Made by a program: the position numbers and the translations under genes. From assembly GCA_020622105.1 (NCBI GenBank), contig JAHRYP010000001.1:125194-189193 (forward strand): DNA of 64,000 nucleotides, written 5' to 3'. Origin of the DNA: Methylotenera sp. (GTDB lineage: Bacteria > Pseudomonadota > Gammaproteobacteria > Burkholderiales > Methylophilaceae). The notes below the pieces were generated by a model. That model did no database searches and was not told where the DNA came from. It worked only from the letters and a program-made list of their open reading frames with translations. Position 1 is the stretch's first letter. Each line of letters begins with the position of its first letter. Shown in pieces: positions 17,465-61,729 of this stretch.

Positions 17465-18469
17465 ATGCGTTATTTATTCCTCTTGCTGGTATTGTTGAGC
17501 GTGTCATGTGGCACAGCATTGCCTACCATAAAACCATACAAACTTGATGTACAGCAGGGTAATGTGGTGACCTCTAAAATGCTGCTGCAACTACGCCCCG
17601 GTATGACCAAATCTCAGGTGCGGTTCATTATGGGCACACCGCTGATTCAAGATAGTTTCCATGGCAATCGCTGGGATTACGTTTATCAGATGCGTGAAGG
17701 CGGTAAGCTTAAAGAGCAGCGTCGCGTTATTCTGGATTTTGAAAATGAGTTATTAAAATCAGTGCGTGGTGATGTCGTGCCATCTGGTACTGATCAGTCA
17801 AAAGCGGATGAGCCGGAAGCACCAACAGGTACACGCGTAGTGACGCCGATTAAAAAGCCTGAAAATAAGGGGTTTTTAAACAAACTTAAATTCTGGGAAA
17901 AAGATGAGGCTGCGCTGGCAAAAGAGGCTGCAGAAAGAGAAGCTGCTGAAAAGTTAGCCGCGGCTAAAGCGAAGAGAGAAGAGACAAAAGCTATTGCAAA
18001 AGCTTCTGCTGCAAAAGAGGCAGCAGAAAAAGAAGCTGCTGAAAAAGCCAGGAGGGAAGAGGCTAAAGCTATTGCAAAAGCTTCTGCTGCAAAGCAAGCG
18101 GAAGACATTTCTGCACAAGAAGAACCAAAGTCTATACTTTCTGTGCCGATTGAGGCGGTTGCACCTGTCGTTGAGCCAGCTGAAGTTGCAGTAGAAGCTC
18201 AGCCAGTTGAAGCAAAACCTGGTGAAGTGGCTGCTCCAGTCGAGCAGCCAGCTAACGGTGAGTCTTATGATTCGTCGTCAGGCATGCAGTTTGATAAAAA
18301 AATGCAGTTAGAAACTGATGAGGCTAAATCTACAGCGAAGCCAGCTACTACACAGCCACCTGCAGAAAATCAGCGCTCAGGAAGTAATGAGTCACCAACA
18401 CCTAAGGATCTGCCGGATGAAGGTGATATTACTTACTTCGACCGTTTGCTTGAGAAAATAGGTTTTTAG
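17465..18469 (+). CDS. bamE: BamE (SmpA/OmlA) outer-membrane assembly lipoprotein with a long Ala/Lys/Glu-rich C-terminal extension
   Basis: Lipobox LSVSCG; VTSKMLLQLRPGMTKSQVRFIMGTPLIQDSFHGNRWDYVYQ; about 228 further residues of low-complexity, coiled-coil-like sequence. Confidence 0.88.
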   Translation: MRYLFLLLVLLSVSCGTALPTIKPYKLDVQQGNVVTSKMLLQLRPGMTKSQVRFIMGTPLIQDSFHGNRWDYVYQMREGGKLKEQRRVILDFENELLKSVRGDVVPSGTDQSKADEPEAPTGTRVVTPIKKPENKGFLNKLKFWEKDEAALAKEAAEREAAEKLAAAKAKREETKAIAKASAAKEAAEKEAAEKARREEAKAIAKASAAKQAEDISAQEEPKSILSVPIEAVAPVVEPAEVAVEAQPVEAKPGEVAAPVEQPANGESYDSSSGMQFDKKMQLETDEAKSTAKPATTQPPAENQRSGSNESPTPKDLPDEGDITYFDRLLEKIGF

Positions 18470-21532: not shown

Positions 21533-24500
21533 ATGGCAAAACGTACAGACATTAAAAGTATTCTAATTATCGGCGCAGGCCCTATCGTGATCGGTCAGGC
21601 CTGTGAGTTTGACTATTCCGGTGCGCAAGCCTGTAAAGCGCTGCGTGAAGAGGGTTATCGCGTTATTCTTGTGAATTCAAATCCGGCTACGATCATGACT
21701 GATCCGGAAATGGCTGATGCAACCTACATTGAGCCTGTGACTTGGCAAGTAGTCGAAAAAATTATCGAAAAAGAGCGCCCGGATGCGCTGTTGCCAACCA
21801 TGGGTGGCCAGACCGCTTTGAATTGTGCGCTGGATCTGGACAAACACGGCGTGCTCGCAAAATTCAACGTAGAGTTGATCGGCGCTTCAAAAGAGGCAAT
21901 TGACAAAGCTGAAGATCGCCAGAAATTTAAAGATGCAATGACCAAAATCGGTTTGGGCTCCGCCCGTTCCGCTGTTGCGCATAGCATGGAAGAAGCATTG
22001 CAGGTGCAGGCTACTATTGGCTATCCGGCGATTATTCGCCCGTCATTCACGATGGGCGGCAGCGGTGGCGGTATTGCTTATAACCGTGAAGAATTCATCG
22101 CCATCTGCGAGCGCGGTTTGGATGCCTCACCAACCAATGAGTTACTGATTGAAGAATCGCTGCTTGGCTGGAAAGAGTACGAGATGGAAGTTGTGCGTGA
22201 CTCTGCCGACAACTGCATCATCATCTGTTCAATCGAAAATCTGGATCCTATGGGTGTGCATACTGGTGACTCGATCACGGTTGCGCCTGCACAAACGTTG
22301 ACGGATAAAGAATATCAGATCATGCGTAACGCCAGCCTGGCTGTGCTTCGCGAGATTGGTGTTGATACTGGTGGTTCAAACGTGCAGTTTGCGATTAATC
22401 CTGACGATGGCCGCATGATCGTTATCGAGATGAACCCGCGTGTATCACGCTCATCTGCACTGGCTTCCAAAGCAACTGGCTTCCCAATTGCCAAAGTGGC
22501 TGCAAAACTGGCGGTTGGTTTTACGCTGGATGAGCTACGTAATGAAATTACCGGCGGTGCAACGCCTGCGTCTTTCGAGCCTAGTATCGATTACGTTGTG
22601 ACTAAAGTGCCGCGTTTTGCATTTGAGAAATTTCCGCAGGCAGATAGCCGACTGACAACACAGATGAAATCTGTAGGCGAGGTGATGGCCATTGGCCGCA
22701 CTTTCCAGGAATCATTCCAGAAAGCCATGCGTGGTTTGGAAGTTGGTGTCGATGGTCTGGATGAAAAAACCACAGACATGGACACGATTACTAAAGAAAT
22801 CGGTGTGCCTGGCCCTGAGCGTATCTGGTATGTGGGTGATGCATTCCGTATGGGCTTAAGTGTTGAGGATGTCTTCAATATTTCAAAAATCGACAGATGG
22901 TTTCTCACGCAGCTGAAAGATATTATCGATCGCGAACAGGCGCTGAAAGGCAGAAATCTTGCCGATCTGGATAAAGCTGCTTTGCTGCAACTGAAACGCC
23001 GTGGCTTCTCTGATCGTAGGCTGGCTAAACTGATGAATACTGACCAGCATGCGGTGCGTGCTTACCGTCAGGCTTTGAATGTGCGCCCTGTATACAAGCG
23101 TGTGGATACCTGTGCTGCCGAGTTTTCAACCAATACGGCTTACATGTACTCAACGTACGAAGAAGAGTGTGCGAAGCGCAGCCTACCAATAATAAAAAAT
23201 TATGGTGCTGGGCGGTGGTCCGAACTGTCGGAAGGTATTGAGTTCGATTATTGCTGTGTGCATGCGGCTTTTGCTATGCGTGAAGACACGAAACTATCAT
23301 GGTTAATCGTAACCTGAAACGGTTTCACTGATTACGACACTCAGATCGACTGTATTTTGAGCCAGTAACATTGGAAGATGTGCTCGAAATCGTAGCGCTG
23401 GAAAAACCGGTTGGTGTGATCGTTCAATACGGCGGCCAAACACCATTGAAACTGGCGCGTGAACTGGAAAAAGCCGGCGTGCCTATTATCGGTACTACAC
23501 CGGATGCGATTGACATGGCTGAAGACCGTGAGCGCTTCCAGAAAATGCTGCATGAATTAGGCCTGAAACAGCCACCTAACCGTACCGCACGTACCGAACA
23601 AGAAGCCTTGCGCTTGGCCGGTGAAATTGGCTACCCGTTAGTGGTGCGTCCTTCTTATGTTTTAGGCGGCCGTGCGATGGAAATCGTGCAGGAGCAAAGC
23701 CAGCTCGAGCGCTACATGCGTGAAGCGGTTAAAGTTTCAAACGAGTCACCGGTATTACTGGATCGTTTTCTCAATGATGCGCTTGAAGTGGATGTGGATG
23801 CATTGTCTGATGGCGTGGAAGTCATCATCGGCGGTATTATGGAACACGTTGAACAGGCGGGTGTACACTCAGGTGACTCAGCATGTTCATTGCCACCTTA
23901 CAGTTTGTCAGCTAAATTGCAGGATGAATTGCGTGTGCAAACCAAACAGATGGCAAAAGCTTTAGGCGTGGTTGGTTTAATGAACGTGCAGTTCGCGATT
24001 CAGGGTGAGACTGTTTATGTGCTCGAAGTGAATCCACGTGCTTCACGTACGGTGCCGTTTGTTTCTAAAGCTTGCGGTTTGCAGCTGGCTAAAGTTGCAG
24101 CGCGCTGCATGGTAGGGCAGTCACTTGCGTCACAGAATGTGACGCGTGAAATTGTGCCGCCGTTCTACTCAGTAAAAGAAGCAGTGTTCCCGTTCATCAA
24201 GTTTCCGGGTGTAGATACGATTCTTGGCCCAGAGATGAAGTCTACCGGTGAAGTGATGGGGGTAGGCAGAACGTTTGCCGAGGCATTCCTGAAGTCACAG
24301 TTGGGTGCTTCAACCAAGCTGCCTGAAGGTGGCCGTGCATTTATCAGCGTACGGAAAGAAGATTACGTTAAAGTGGTTGAGATTGCGCAGCAGCTGGATC
24401 GACTTGGTTTTGAGCTGGTTGCTACCAAAGGTACCGCAGCAGCTTTAACTGCAAGCGGCCTGCAAGTGCAGGCGGTGAACAAGGTGGCTGAAGGTCGTCC

Positions 24501-24726
24501 GCATATTGTTGATATGATCAAAAACGGTGATATCAGCTTTATTGTGAATGTGACTGAAGATAAACGTGCGGTTGCGGACTCATACGAGATTCGTCGCAGT
24601 GCATTGCAGAATAAAGTGACTTACTACACAACGCTGGCTGGCGCTAAAGCAGCATGTATCGGTATGGCGCACATGCAAGAAATTCAGGTAGAGTCATTAC
24701 AGAACTTGCATAAACAACTAAGCTAA
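21533..24726 (+). pseudogene. carB: Carbamoyl-phosphate synthase large subunit, reading frame broken by clustered indels around 23169-23341 (ORFs 21533..23317 and 23371..24726)
   Basis: Both flanks are intact CarB ([37 protein letters not shown] ... [30 protein letters not shown]); the conserved [12 protein letters not shown] and [23 protein letters not shown] segments are only recovered by switching frames several times. Confidence 0.85.
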
Positions 24727-51184: not shown

Positions 51185-51712
51185 CTACTGTTGCGTAGCA
51201 GCTGGTTTGATTGCAGTTAAACGACGCAGTAGTTCACGTACTGCATCGGTACGCATATCTGCATTAAGCCTTGCCTCTTCTTCAGCTTTACCGAGTAAAG
51301 CACTGTCACTGTAAGAAAAATCGCGACGTCCGCGTAGTGTTTGCACCGGCCCCCACGTCGGGCTACTAGCCTCACGCACCCTGAAGTTCAAGAGGTAAAT
51401 AAGCTCAAACTCACGTACCAGACCGCCGCCACTCAGAGACAGAATGCGCTTCTGGTTGCTTTCGCTTAATAGCTCCAGTAACAGTTCGGCATCTTCAGCG
51501 TTTTCAACCACCTGTACACCATTGGTTTTAAGGTTACGTGCCAAGTCCCTGGAAATGGTTAACTTACCGCCTTGTATATAAAGCGTCTTAAATGCTAAAT
51601 CAGCCGCTCCCCTCAATTGAAAACCGCAGGCAGACAACGCAAGCGTCAACAGCATGACGATGCTGATAACAGTTTTTCTGCGCGCATTTACTAAGGAAAG
51701 GGCGTTTTGCAT
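51185..51712 (-). CDS. lptE: LPS-assembly lipoprotein LptE
   Basis: LALSACGFQLRGAADLAFKTLYIQG; between leuS and holA. Confidence 0.93.
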   Translation of the reverse strand: MQNALSLVNARRKTVISIVMLLTLALSACGFQLRGAADLAFKTLYIQGGKLTISRDLARNLKTNGVQVVENAEDAELLLELLSESNQKRILSLSGGGLVREFELIYLLNFRVREASSPTWGPVQTLRGRRDFSYSDSALLGKAEEEARLNADMRTDAVRELLRRLTAIKPAATQQ

Positions 51713-57626: not shown

Positions 57627-58928
57627 TTAAAATTTATCTTCAAGCCTGTACTCGACATAAGCACGGTCACGTAATTCACGTAACCAGTCCTGAAATGCTT
57701 CATCGGCCTTGCGTGCACGGATTTCCTGCCGCGCTTTCAGTCGGGCAGCTTCTTTACTCATATCTTGCTTACGGCGTTCGAGCACTTGAATGACATGCCA
57801 GCCGAATGGGCTACGAACAGGTTCGCTGATCTGGTTATCTTTGAGCTCATTCATGGCTTTTTCAAACTGGGGGACAGTATCTCCGGGATTCACCCAGCCT
57901 AGATCGCCACCATTTGATGCTGTGCCGTCTTCAGAGAATTGGCGTGCAAGCACTTCGAATTTTTCACCATTATCCAAACGGTCTTTGATGTTATCCATTT
58001 TTTGTTTGCCGTCTTTTTCGGATACGATTTCAGTCAGCTTGATCAGGATGTGGCGGGCATGGGTCTGTTCAATGACTAAAGGCGAGTTGCCACCACGTTT
58101 GCTGGTAAGTTTTAATATATGAAAACCGTTTGGGCTACGCAATGCTGGCGTTATATCACCAGCTTGCATGTTTTTTAAGGCATCAAGAAATAATGCGGGT
58201 AGCTGGGCGGCGGCTTTCCAACCCAGATTGCCGCCCTCTAACGCGTTGGGAGCATCAGAGTAACTAGCGGAAACTTTTGCAAAGCTTGCACCATCTTGCA
58301 AGGCCTTGATTGCCTCGTCAACTTTGGCCTTGGCTTTTTGTATTTCTTCTGTGGAGCCTTCTTCTGGGGTGCGGATAAGAATGTGTGAGATTTCAAATTC
58401 ATCACGATTTTCATTGCTGGAGGCTTGAGTAGTCAGGAAGTTATCAATTTCAGATTCACTTACATTCACGCGGCTATCCACTTCGCGTTCGCGCAAGCGT
58501 GCGATGGTAATCTCATTGCGGATATCTGCCCTGAACTTGGCCATGCTGATGCCATCTGCGTTTAATGCGTCGCCAAATTCTTTTACAGTCATCTGGTTTT
58601 GTTCTGCAATACGCTCTATGGTTTTGTCGAGCTGGTTATCATCTACTTTTAGCCCGGTTTGTGCTGCGTACTGCAATTGTAGGGCATCAGAAATCAAACG
58701 CTCTAGAATCTGCTTGCGCAGCACATTTTCCGGAGGCAATTCGGTCCCTTTTTTTGTGAGCTGAGCAGTCAATGTGCGGATGCGGCTTTCCAGCTCCTGT
58801 TCGGTGATCACTGTTTGATCAACGATTGCAACGATGCGATCCATTTTGACTATTTCTGCTGCAGATGCAGTGAAATGGCCGATGCTTAATAAAGTGAATA
58901 ATAAGATTTGAACAAAAATACGCAACAT
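57627..58928 (-). CDS. surA: Periplasmic chaperone / peptidyl-prolyl isomerase SurA
   Basis: Signal peptide, DRIVAIVDQTVITEQELESR, two parvulin domains (ISHILIRTPEEG, ARHILIKLTEIV). Confidence 0.95.
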   Translation of the reverse strand: MLRIFVQILLFTLLSIGHFTASAAEIVKMDRIVAIVDQTVITEQELESRIRTLTAQLTKKGTELPPENVLRKQILERLISDALQLQYAAQTGLKVDDNQLDKTIERIAEQNQMTVKEFGDALNADGISMAKFRADIRNEITIARLREREVDSRVNVSESEIDNFLTTQASSNENRDEFEISHILIRTPEEGSTEEIQKAKAKVDEAIKALQDGASFAKVSASYSDAPNALEGGNLGWKAAAQLPALFLDALKNMQAGDITPALRSPNGFHILKLTSKRGGNSPLVIEQTHARHILIKLTEIVSEKDGKQKMDNIKDRLDNGEKFEVLARQFSEDGTASNGGDLGWVNPGDTVPQFEKAMNELKDNQISEPVRSPFGWHVIQVLERRKQDMSKEAARLKARQEIRARKADEAFQDWLRELRDRAYVEYRLEDKF

Positions 58929-58930
58929 AG

Positions 58931-61729
58931 TTACTCGTAATATGATTGTTGATTAGTATCAGGTATCAGCCCAGTGCTGACATAACCTGGAATATTGCGC
59001 TGGATAATTCTGAGTGGATTCGCGCCGATTGAGGCTAGGCCGCCCAACTCCAGCTGGAAGAAGAAAGCGTAGTTGGCCTCAGCAGTAGCCGTGCTCACAC
59101 GTTGCAGAACAGTTCGCGCTTGCCAGCATCCTGCATCATACTCTAAACCACCAATTGTTTCGATGATTCGATTTTCCCTGAATGAATAGTTGGCACGGCC
59201 AATACCATACCATCCCCTGCCTAAAGGCCATTGCGCAGAGATATCGCTCTGGTCAATAGAATCTTGCCTGTAGCTGTAGCTTAGGTTCAGTACTTTTCCC
59301 GGTTCTGGATTATAACGCCCAGAAATCGTAGAGCGAACTGAATTCGCGTTATCGGTGTTGTATTGCCAGAATGTATCAATTATCCAGCTATTTTTAAGTT
59401 GGGCACTGATGCCGGCGATGATGTCTGAACTGTTGTTTTTACGAGGTTCAATGCCTGGTAATGTAACTTTCTGGTCTGCGAAGTAATAACGCTGGCCTAT
59501 GGAGGCAGACAGGCGTTGCGTGCCGGTGCTGCTTTCGATAAAGCGCGATGTTAAAGCAAAACTGACCTGATTTGCATTGTTAATGCGGTCATTACCTACA
59601 AATTGGTTTTCGCTGAATAGGGAGCTGAAATTCAAGTCGGTGAGGCTGGTATCAAAAACCGGGATATTTGACTGGTCGCGTTCAGGGATATATACATAAA
59701 ACAAGCGCGGTTCCAGTGTCTGCGAATAGCCACGTTTTGCTATTTTAAAATCCCGGTCAAAATACAAGCCACTATCCAGACTGAATATCGGCAAGGTGCG
59801 TTGATATGTTGATTCTTTATACGGGTCGTCATTCACGCTGTAATTGGTATGATGAATGCCAAATTTTGGAGTTACATAACCATAGGTCCGTGCGAACGGA
59901 ATGCTGATGCTGGGGTTTATGGTAGTGCGCGTGCCGGTTACTCGCGGGTCACCCGTTGCAGTGAGCGGTGCATTTTTATTAATATCAAACACTGCCAGTT
60001 GCGAATACAAGTTGGCATTGATGTCACCATAATATTTATTACCTACCAGCGTCATTTGCGGTAAACGTTCGTATGGATATGAATCTTGTTTTAGTGTCTG
60101 GAATTTTTGTGCAATTGCGTTGAAACGCCAGTTTTCATCTGCGTAATCCAAATTAAACTGTTGCGGCAGATTGATTCGGCTGGTGGTGACAATACGTGTA
60201 GACATCTCAGAGAAGTATTGGTCATCTGATACTTTTTCAAGGCTATAACCCGCTGACCAGCCGTTTCCGAAACGGTGCTGATGTTTCAGATTAGCGTAGT
60301 AACGTGTTTCGTTGCTGAGGCTGTCGGTAGGCAGGTATTCTAGATTGCTGGTACCAGAAAAGTTATCTTGCAGATATCTGAATTCACCTTGTAACTGGAT
60401 GCCGCGTTTACTTAGCGCGCGCGTAGCAAGTGTCGCATCCATATTTGGAGCAATGTTCCAGTAATAGGGTACCAAGGCCTCAAAACCACTACGGCTGGTA
60501 CTGCCGATGGTTGGTGCGAGAAAGCCACTCTTACGTTGATCATTGAACGAAAAGCCAATCCACGGTGTGTAGAGTATCGGTATGCCTTTAAATTCAATGC
60601 GTGCATTTTTCGCAGTACCGGAGTCTGTGTAATCATTGAGTGATATTTCGCTGGCCTTAATATACCAGTCATCAACACCGGCTTCACATGTGGTGTAGCG
60701 TGCATCTAACAGGCGCTTTTTGTCTTCACCTTCAAACAGAATCGATCTGGCATCAGCGCGGGCTTTGGTTGAGCGGGCGGTTGTGTTGAGCGTAAATGGG
60801 TTGTTGGATTGGCTGGCACTGAGGTCAGTGACAGGTAAGCCATCAGCTGAAGTGTACGAATCATCACTGCCTAATTGCTGGCTTTGCAGATCGCCCAATC
60901 TTCTGGCAAAAGTCTCAGAACTTACTGTGCGACGTTTTTGCAAGATGGCTGCCATAGGATTAGACATACTGATTGAAGCATCCCGCATTTCACCTACGCT
61001 CTCAGACAGCTGCATGCGCAGCTCTGGGCCGGTGACTTTGGCGTTATCAACTTCTATGCGCACGTTACCAATTGCGTGTAGTTCGTCATTCAGCACATCA
61101 TATTCGAGGCTATCAGCAAAAATATCCTGTTTGTCTTGATGGATAGATGCATTGCCGGTAGAGCGCATTTTGCGGTCTAACTGTAGTTCCAGTTTTTCTC
61201 CATCAATGATGATGCCGCCTTCTGCTACTGCATCTGTCTTGTTAGCAGGCTTACTGGTATTTTTGGCATTACTGCCTTGACCTGCTGTTATTAGCCTAGC
61301 TTCTAATTTCTCAGGAGGCTTATTTAAGCCTTTATTACCTGTTTTTTTACTAGGGGTAACGACATTAGGTGCAATAGCGAGATCTGCTGTATGGCTCTTG
61401 GGTAAATCACTGGTGACTGGAATGATGTCGCCACGCACTGATTTGAGTAATCCATTTTCAAAAACCAGAACGACAAGACGCTGTTCTTTTAGCTCGCTGC
61501 CTACCCGACGCTGATAAACATAATTCCATCGGTCGTCTTGCGAGTTGCTCGGAATTAACGGCACACCCAAAATAGTCTGCACTTGAGGTTTCGTCATGCC
61601 TGGGCGAAGCTGCAATAGCATTGCAGAGTTCAGCACATGATCCTGTGACAAGTTCAGTGCAGCATCGGAAATGGAGCCGTGAGCCATCAGGATGGCAGCA
61701 AGGCTGGCGATGACGCGATTCTTTAGCAT
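58931..61729 (-). CDS. lptD: LPS-assembly protein LptD with an N-terminal BamE-like domain
   Basis: OstA-like segment (QDKQDIFADSLEYDVLNDELHAIGNVRIEV) and LptD barrel (GIPILYTPWIGFSFNDQRKSGFLAPTIGSTSRSGFEALVPYYWNIAPNMDATL); residues 35-104 align to BamE; surA immediately downstream. Confidence 0.93.
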   Translation of the reverse strand: MLKNRVIASLAAILMAHGSISDAALNLSQDHVLNSAMLLQLRPGMTKPQVQTILGVPLIPSNSQDDRWNYVYQRRVGSELKEQRLVVLVFENGLLKSVRGDIIPVTSDLPKSHTADLAIAPNVVTPSKKTGNKGLNKPPEKLEARLITAGQGSNAKNTSKPANKTDAVAEGGIIIDGEKLELQLDRKMRSTGNASIHQDKQDIFADSLEYDVLNDELHAIGNVRIEVDNAKVTGPELRMQLSESVGEMRDASISMSNPMAAILQKRRTVSSETFARRLGDLQSQQLGSDDSYTSADGLPVTDLSASQSNNPFTLNTTARSTKARADARSILFEGEDKKRLLDARYTTCEAGVDDWYIKASEISLNDYTDSGTAKNARIEFKGIPILYTPWIGFSFNDQRKSGFLAPTIGSTSRSGFEALVPYYWNIAPNMDATLATRALSKRGIQLQGEFRYLQDNFSGTSNLEYLPTDSLSNETRYYANLKHQHRFGNGWSAGYSLEKVSDDQYFSEMSTRIVTTSRINLPQQFNLDYADENWRFNAIAQKFQTLKQDSYPYERLPQMTLVGNKYYGDINANLYSQLAVFDINKNAPLTATGDPRVTGTRTTINPSISIPFARTYGYVTPKFGIHHTNYSVNDDPYKESTYQRTLPIFSLDSGLYFDRDFKIAKRGYSQTLEPRLFYVYIPERDQSNIPVFDTSLTDLNFSSLFSENQFVGNDRINNANQVSFALTSRFIESSTGTQRLSASIGQRYYFADQKVTLPGIEPRKNNSSDIIAGISAQLKNSWIIDTFWQYNTDNANSVRSTISGRYNPEPGKVLNLSYSYRQDSIDQSDISAQWPLGRGWYGIGRANYSFRENRIIETIGGLEYDAGCWQARTVLQRVSTATAEANYAFFFQLELGGLASIGANPLRIIQRNIPGYVSTGLIPDTNQQSYYE

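Follow-up and report, generated by a model that had tools for sequence, protein, structure and literature searches.

LptD is an essential protein that inserts lipopolysaccharide in the outer membrane and is among the slowest clients of BAM, the machine building outer-membrane proteins (OMPs), to which OMPs are delivered by the chaperone SurA and of which BamE is a part whose role is still debated. In the Lpt bridge, LptA docks on LptD at its N-terminal beta domain. In BamE itself, Gly35, Asn36, Asp66, and Phe68 form what we take to be the BamD/lipid-binding face. The TpgA protein of Acinetobacter has an N-terminal domain which in a crystal structure is bound to the transmembrane domain of AtaA and which in simulations makes the AtaA barrel harder to pull out of the membrane (PMC13082670).

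We analyzed a 64,000-nucleotide stretch of the genome of a Methylotenera sp. (here called the window), a member of a group of methanol-eating bacteria, and found that a BamE-derived domain is fused to its LptD behind an ordinary signal peptide. The lptD open reading frame (58931..61729, minus strand) encodes 932 aa and matches both the Pfam BamE family (PF04355; residues 32-94, E 9.7e-16, 57.8 bits against a cut-off of 23.2) and the Pfam LptD family (PF04453; residues 475-840, E 2.5e-101). The profile scan that the sequence-only reading had proposed for its BamE-like domain at the N terminus of LptD thus bears the claim out; the NCBIfam BamE equivalog gave an E of 7.6e-7, which is under its own cut-off. 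On the basis of Pfam, the alignment of relatives, and the secondary structure of an AlphaFold model, the protein consists of a signal peptide (residues 1-24, MLKNRVIASLAAILMAHGSISDAA; 61658..61729, minus strand), the BamE-derived domain (residues ~25-105; 61415..61657, minus strand; alpha-alpha-beta-beta-beta), a linker (residues ~106-170; 61220..61414, minus strand; pLDDT below 50 over residues 104-171), the N-terminal beta domain (~171-330), and the C-terminal beta-barrel domain (~331-930). The AlphaFold model of the full-length protein has a mean pLDDT of 46 and informs only on the domain order and the disordered linker. The first 24 residues, comprising the start and the most hydrophobic 12-aa stretch within residues 1-175, align with those of unfused relatives and contain no lipobox Cys, so the BamE-derived domain should form a soluble extension in the periplasm, as had been predicted from the sequence.

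Apart from this additional domain and its flexible linker, the protein shares with other LptDs (OstA/Imp, PF04453) the barrel, the N-terminal beta domain, the Cys pair 348/868, and the lptD-surA gene order, surA (57627..58928, minus strand; named from reading the translation) lying directly downstream. Cys348 is present in 65 of the 65 aligned LptDs and Cys868 in 64 of them. This LptD and nearly all of its aligned relatives have a single conserved Cys pair, as against four cysteines in E. coli LptD. A match to LptE, the LptD partner, was found at 51218..51592 on the minus strand (Pfam, E 1.6e-16; G000:C39:176411-176785).

The window also encodes a free BamE (17465..18469, plus strand), a lipoprotein of 334 aa with an SVSC lipobox, whose gene lies between fur and dapB and which has intact QQGN and DSFH motifs and a long Ala/Glu/Lys-rich tail. 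Positions 61418-61627 translate on the minus strand exactly to LptD residues 35-104, which align without gaps to residues 37-106 of this BamE with 46 of 70 residues (148 of 210 nucleotides) identical, and the hand count made earlier is thereby reproduced. As the extent of the similarity, however, this segment turned out to be too short, since the alignment reaches LptD residues ~19-146. The local alignment of the fused domain with BamE scored 301, whereas none of 200 shuffles exceeded the maximum of 58, and the alignment of the tails alone scored higher than all of 500 shuffles. The first part of the linker, up to about residue 146, resembles the stretch behind the BamE domain of free BamE, including the motif VVTP.KK..NKG. 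The family of the free bamE gene is the likely source of the fused domain. Long Ala/Glu/Lys-rich tails are found on free BamEs of the Methylophilaceae (334 aa in total length here versus 113 aa in E. coli), and the free BamE of one other genus belongs to an open reading frame of ~929 aa (G170, L243 1333-4122). Elsewhere in the window carB (named from reading) is apparently split into frames of 594 and 451 aa (21533-23317 and 23371-24726, plus strand), which looks like a frameshift, real or assembly-borne.

Of 187 Methylophilaceae genomes searched, seven have the LptD-BamE fusion, so the survey of LptD homologs suggested by the sequence-only reading did recover the architecture beyond the window. 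Four of the 51 genomes under the same genus code are fused, namely, the window's own (G000), G011 (a single contig), G029 (Methylotenera sp. RIFCSPLOWO2_02_FULL_45_14), and G048 (Methylotenera sp. MLJ.18). The other three (G223, G224, and G225), which came from the family-wide search with follow-up on genomes having at least two BamE hits, belong to a second genus, in which the sister species G221, G222, and G226 are without the domain. Metagenome assemblies are among the fused genomes. Two distinct LptD matches each were seen in G005 (C27 and C41) and G057 (C36 and C68), representing contamination or true paralogs. No fusion was seen in the further families sampled from the order, in 19 of the order's genomes picked mostly for long LptD frames, or in a sample of ~100 other families of the class, all searches that a strongly diverged domain could escape; the long LptD frames of other families were rejected as further fusions, as they contain no BamE. 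No published report of an LptD-BamE fusion was found in the literature searched.

The genome of the window is in 53 contigs, which could speak for a misassembly. This or a wrong start codon is nevertheless extremely improbable, as six further genomes, including a single-contig one, show the same architecture, and the start and signal peptide are conserved. A start downstream of the BamE-like segment, named earlier as a possible objection, is ruled out because residues 98 to 188 contain no in-frame start codon and the only signal peptide, which unfused LptDs have as well, precedes the segment. An artefact is accordingly rejected, and the LptD-BamE fusion is rare and real.

We then compared the seven fused copies with 81 free BamEs. 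A review table (PMC10135246) gives the E. coli BamE residues at which mutation increases the sensitivity to vancomycin, and the mutant list taken from it gave a patch of Gln34, Gly35, Asn36, Asp66, and Phe68. These residues are invariant in the 81 free BamEs. In the fused copies Gln34 is kept in five of seven, Asn36 and Asp66 in two of seven each, and Gly35 and Phe68 in none. Among the other tabulated positions, the family residue is kept in all seven at I46, V55, W73, Y75, R78 (Gln in this family), Q88, L91, L93, F95, and L101. The AlphaFold model of the fused domain has the BamE fold (alpha-alpha-beta-beta-beta) with a core pLDDT of mostly 68 to 90; it matches solved BamE structures (best Foldseek hit 5wam, E 5.3e-6; TM-scores are modest, 0.5 to 0.6), and it also matches the N-terminal domain of TpgA bound to the AtaA barrel (PDB 9VNJ). 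As judged from these alignments, the core of the BamE fold is kept and the BamE function patch is lost in both fused groups.

In comparison with BamE (SmpA/OmlA, PF04355), the fused domain therefore shares the sequence profile, the fold, the core residues, and probable descent from the bamE of its own lineage. It differs in lacking Gly35 and Phe68 and mostly Asn36 and Asp66, in being covalently part of LptD, in coexisting with an intact free BamE, and in being unanchored by lipid, the lipobox Cys, and with it the lipoprotein character of BamE, being absent from the signal peptide in all fused copies. The earlier suggestion that the domain recruits BAM in cis is not supported as stated, since the function patch is altered in seven of seven copies even though the fold core is kept. 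In its broader form that suggestion would have the domain dock on BAM (BamD or BamA POTRA5) or on SurA, bringing in the slow-folding LptD or timing its release. BamE is indeed located between BamA POTRA5 and BamD (PMC13067283; PMC10135246), a contact of the SurA PPIase-2 domain with BamE has been predicted (PMC11366764) and surA is the next gene after lptD, and the fold is retained together with core residues such as W73, Y75, and F95. The residues invariant in the 81 free BamEs, however, are those that the fused copies lose (Gly35 and Phe68 in seven of seven, Asn36 and Asp66 in five of seven), the lipid anchor is missing, and in E. coli genetics BamE is reported not to be needed for LptE/LptD assembly (PMC6529637). 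We therefore regard such recruitment as unlikely; the fused domain may touch BAM or SurA via another surface.

In the fused genomes checked, the domain does not stand in for a missing BamE, LptE, or BamC either. Free BamE is retained in seven of seven fused genomes, and replacement of it was rejected. LptE and BamC are present in the five fused genomes checked, as well as in unfused controls, and for these five genomes compensation for a missing LptE or BamC was likewise rejected.

To trace the origin of the fusion, an LptD tree was built without the N terminus. In it, G000, G011, and G048 form a clade with the unfused G017 as its sister, while the fused G029 falls inside an unfused group, and a single clade of the four fused LptDs is rejected by the AU test. 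The fused BamE domains of G000, G011, G029, and G048, in contrast, group together in one clade (99/99), with the free BamEs of their lineage next to it. G029 is a mosaic: around and along lptD it is ~90% identical to the unfused G023, except in a segment reaching from roughly -75 to +500 bp with sharp breakpoints, in which it goes with G048. This pattern indicates that a tract of ~0.55 kb with the BamE domain was imported into G029 by recombination. A single vertical origin in Methylotenera followed by loss in the G023 group was rejected by the mosaic and the AU test. The second fused group (G223, G224, and G225) is one clade in the LptD tree and has unfused sisters. Fourteen sites distinguish the two genera in their free BamEs. 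Of these, the second group agrees with its own genus at five and with the Methylotenera group at none; the first group is of the Methylotenera type. The short BamE tree did not reach rejection of a single origin of both groups (p 0.447). The diagnostic residues connect either fused group with the free BamE of its own lineage, so that two independent origins from the respective bamE genes are likely.

Next, the selection acting on the parts of the protein was estimated as dN/dS in the two fused groups (A and B); only the order of magnitude of these values counts, because many synonymous distances are saturated. In group A the fused domain gave 0.14 to 0.18 (where synonymous change was unsaturated), compared with 0.01 to 0.05 for the free BamE domain, 0.02 to 0.06 for the barrel, and 0.65 to 0.78 for the linker (where computable). 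In group B the values were 0.09 to 0.22 for the fused domain, 0.01 to 0.04 for free BamE, and 0.24 to 0.62 for the linker. The fused domain is thus under purifying selection several-fold weaker than that on free BamE. Its faster evolution, the lost functional patch, and the patchy presence in 7 of 187 genomes of the family would all suit a near-neutral insertion, foldable enough to spare the secretion and assembly of the essential LptD and having no function of its own. We consider such a tolerated passenger doubtful, given that the domain probably arose twice at the same site, was imported by recombination into a third lineage, and in group A is under clearly stronger selection than the linker. 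The probable double origin and one passage between species suggest that the domain is useful.

Taken together, our preferred reading, to which we give a probability of roughly 0.4, is that the BamE fold has been repurposed as a cis-acting accessory or partner of LptD itself and is not a spare BAM subunit. It is favored over recruitment of BAM or SurA and over a tolerated passenger, and a changed role is preferred to that of a spare subunit because both groups have lost the patch and retained the fold. The insert behind the lptD signal peptide would be a copy of bamE coding sequence comprising the mature N terminus, the domain, and part of the tail. The fused LptD would be exported by Sec and its signal peptide removed, leaving a periplasmic BamE fold that a flexible tether of ~65 residues joins to the N-terminal beta domain of LptD, presumably near the expected docking place of LptA. 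The fold would have been kept and the surface used by BamE within BAM given up, possibly because tight binding to BAM would prevent the product from leaving. The domain would then act in cis and, with a putative benefit, hold LptE, the LptA bridge, or the barrel of its own protein from the periplasmic side. Speaking against this cis-partner reading, selection weaker than that on free BamE is also possible for a loosely constrained passenger, the full-length model is too poor to bear on docking, and most Methylophilaceae are without the domain.

The model for such cis action, and by analogy the nearest precedent for the fused domain, is TpgA-AtaA, where a BamE-like domain holds the underside of the AtaA barrel. 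In both, a BamE-like fold would serve a single outer-membrane protein and not BAM. TpgA differs in being a separate protein with a peptidoglycan-binding part that binds its client in trans, and its client is a trimeric autotransporter. The fused LptD does not have the OmpA-like domain beside a trimeric autotransporter that marks a TpgA-like protein and is likened to TpgA by mode of action only. A rival reading, in which the domain is a new periplasmic tether that binds lipid or peptidoglycan, positions the Lpt bridge, and has nothing to do with assembly, could draw on its place at the N terminus of LptD and on TpgA, which links its BamE-like domain to the barrel and to peptidoglycan (PMC8151025). 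This we judge improbable, as the lptD open reading frame contains no OmpA-like domain for binding peptidoglycan. G011 encodes a third protein with a BamE domain, in which BamE-like and OmpA-like parts are combined and which matches TpgA (9vnj) and OmpA structures; it lies beside a YadA-type trimeric autotransporter (L063 2191-3081 and 3129-5483, both on the minus strand), making a TpgA-like pair.

Somewhat more tentatively than for the cis-partner reading itself, a subunit of the BAM machine would have been captured twice by a client of that machine and made into a cis-acting accessory domain of the lipopolysaccharide translocon, specific to this client and with its BAM-facing surface erased; BamE-type folds would then, besides forming a BAM subunit, make up a pool of client-specific barrel partners (TpgA and the fused LptD). 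The BamE fold can stay under selection after loss of the residues thought to define BamE function. With a natural LptD-BamE fusion, unfused sister species, and one traceable import, the Methylophilaceae offer matched pairs for studying the added domain.
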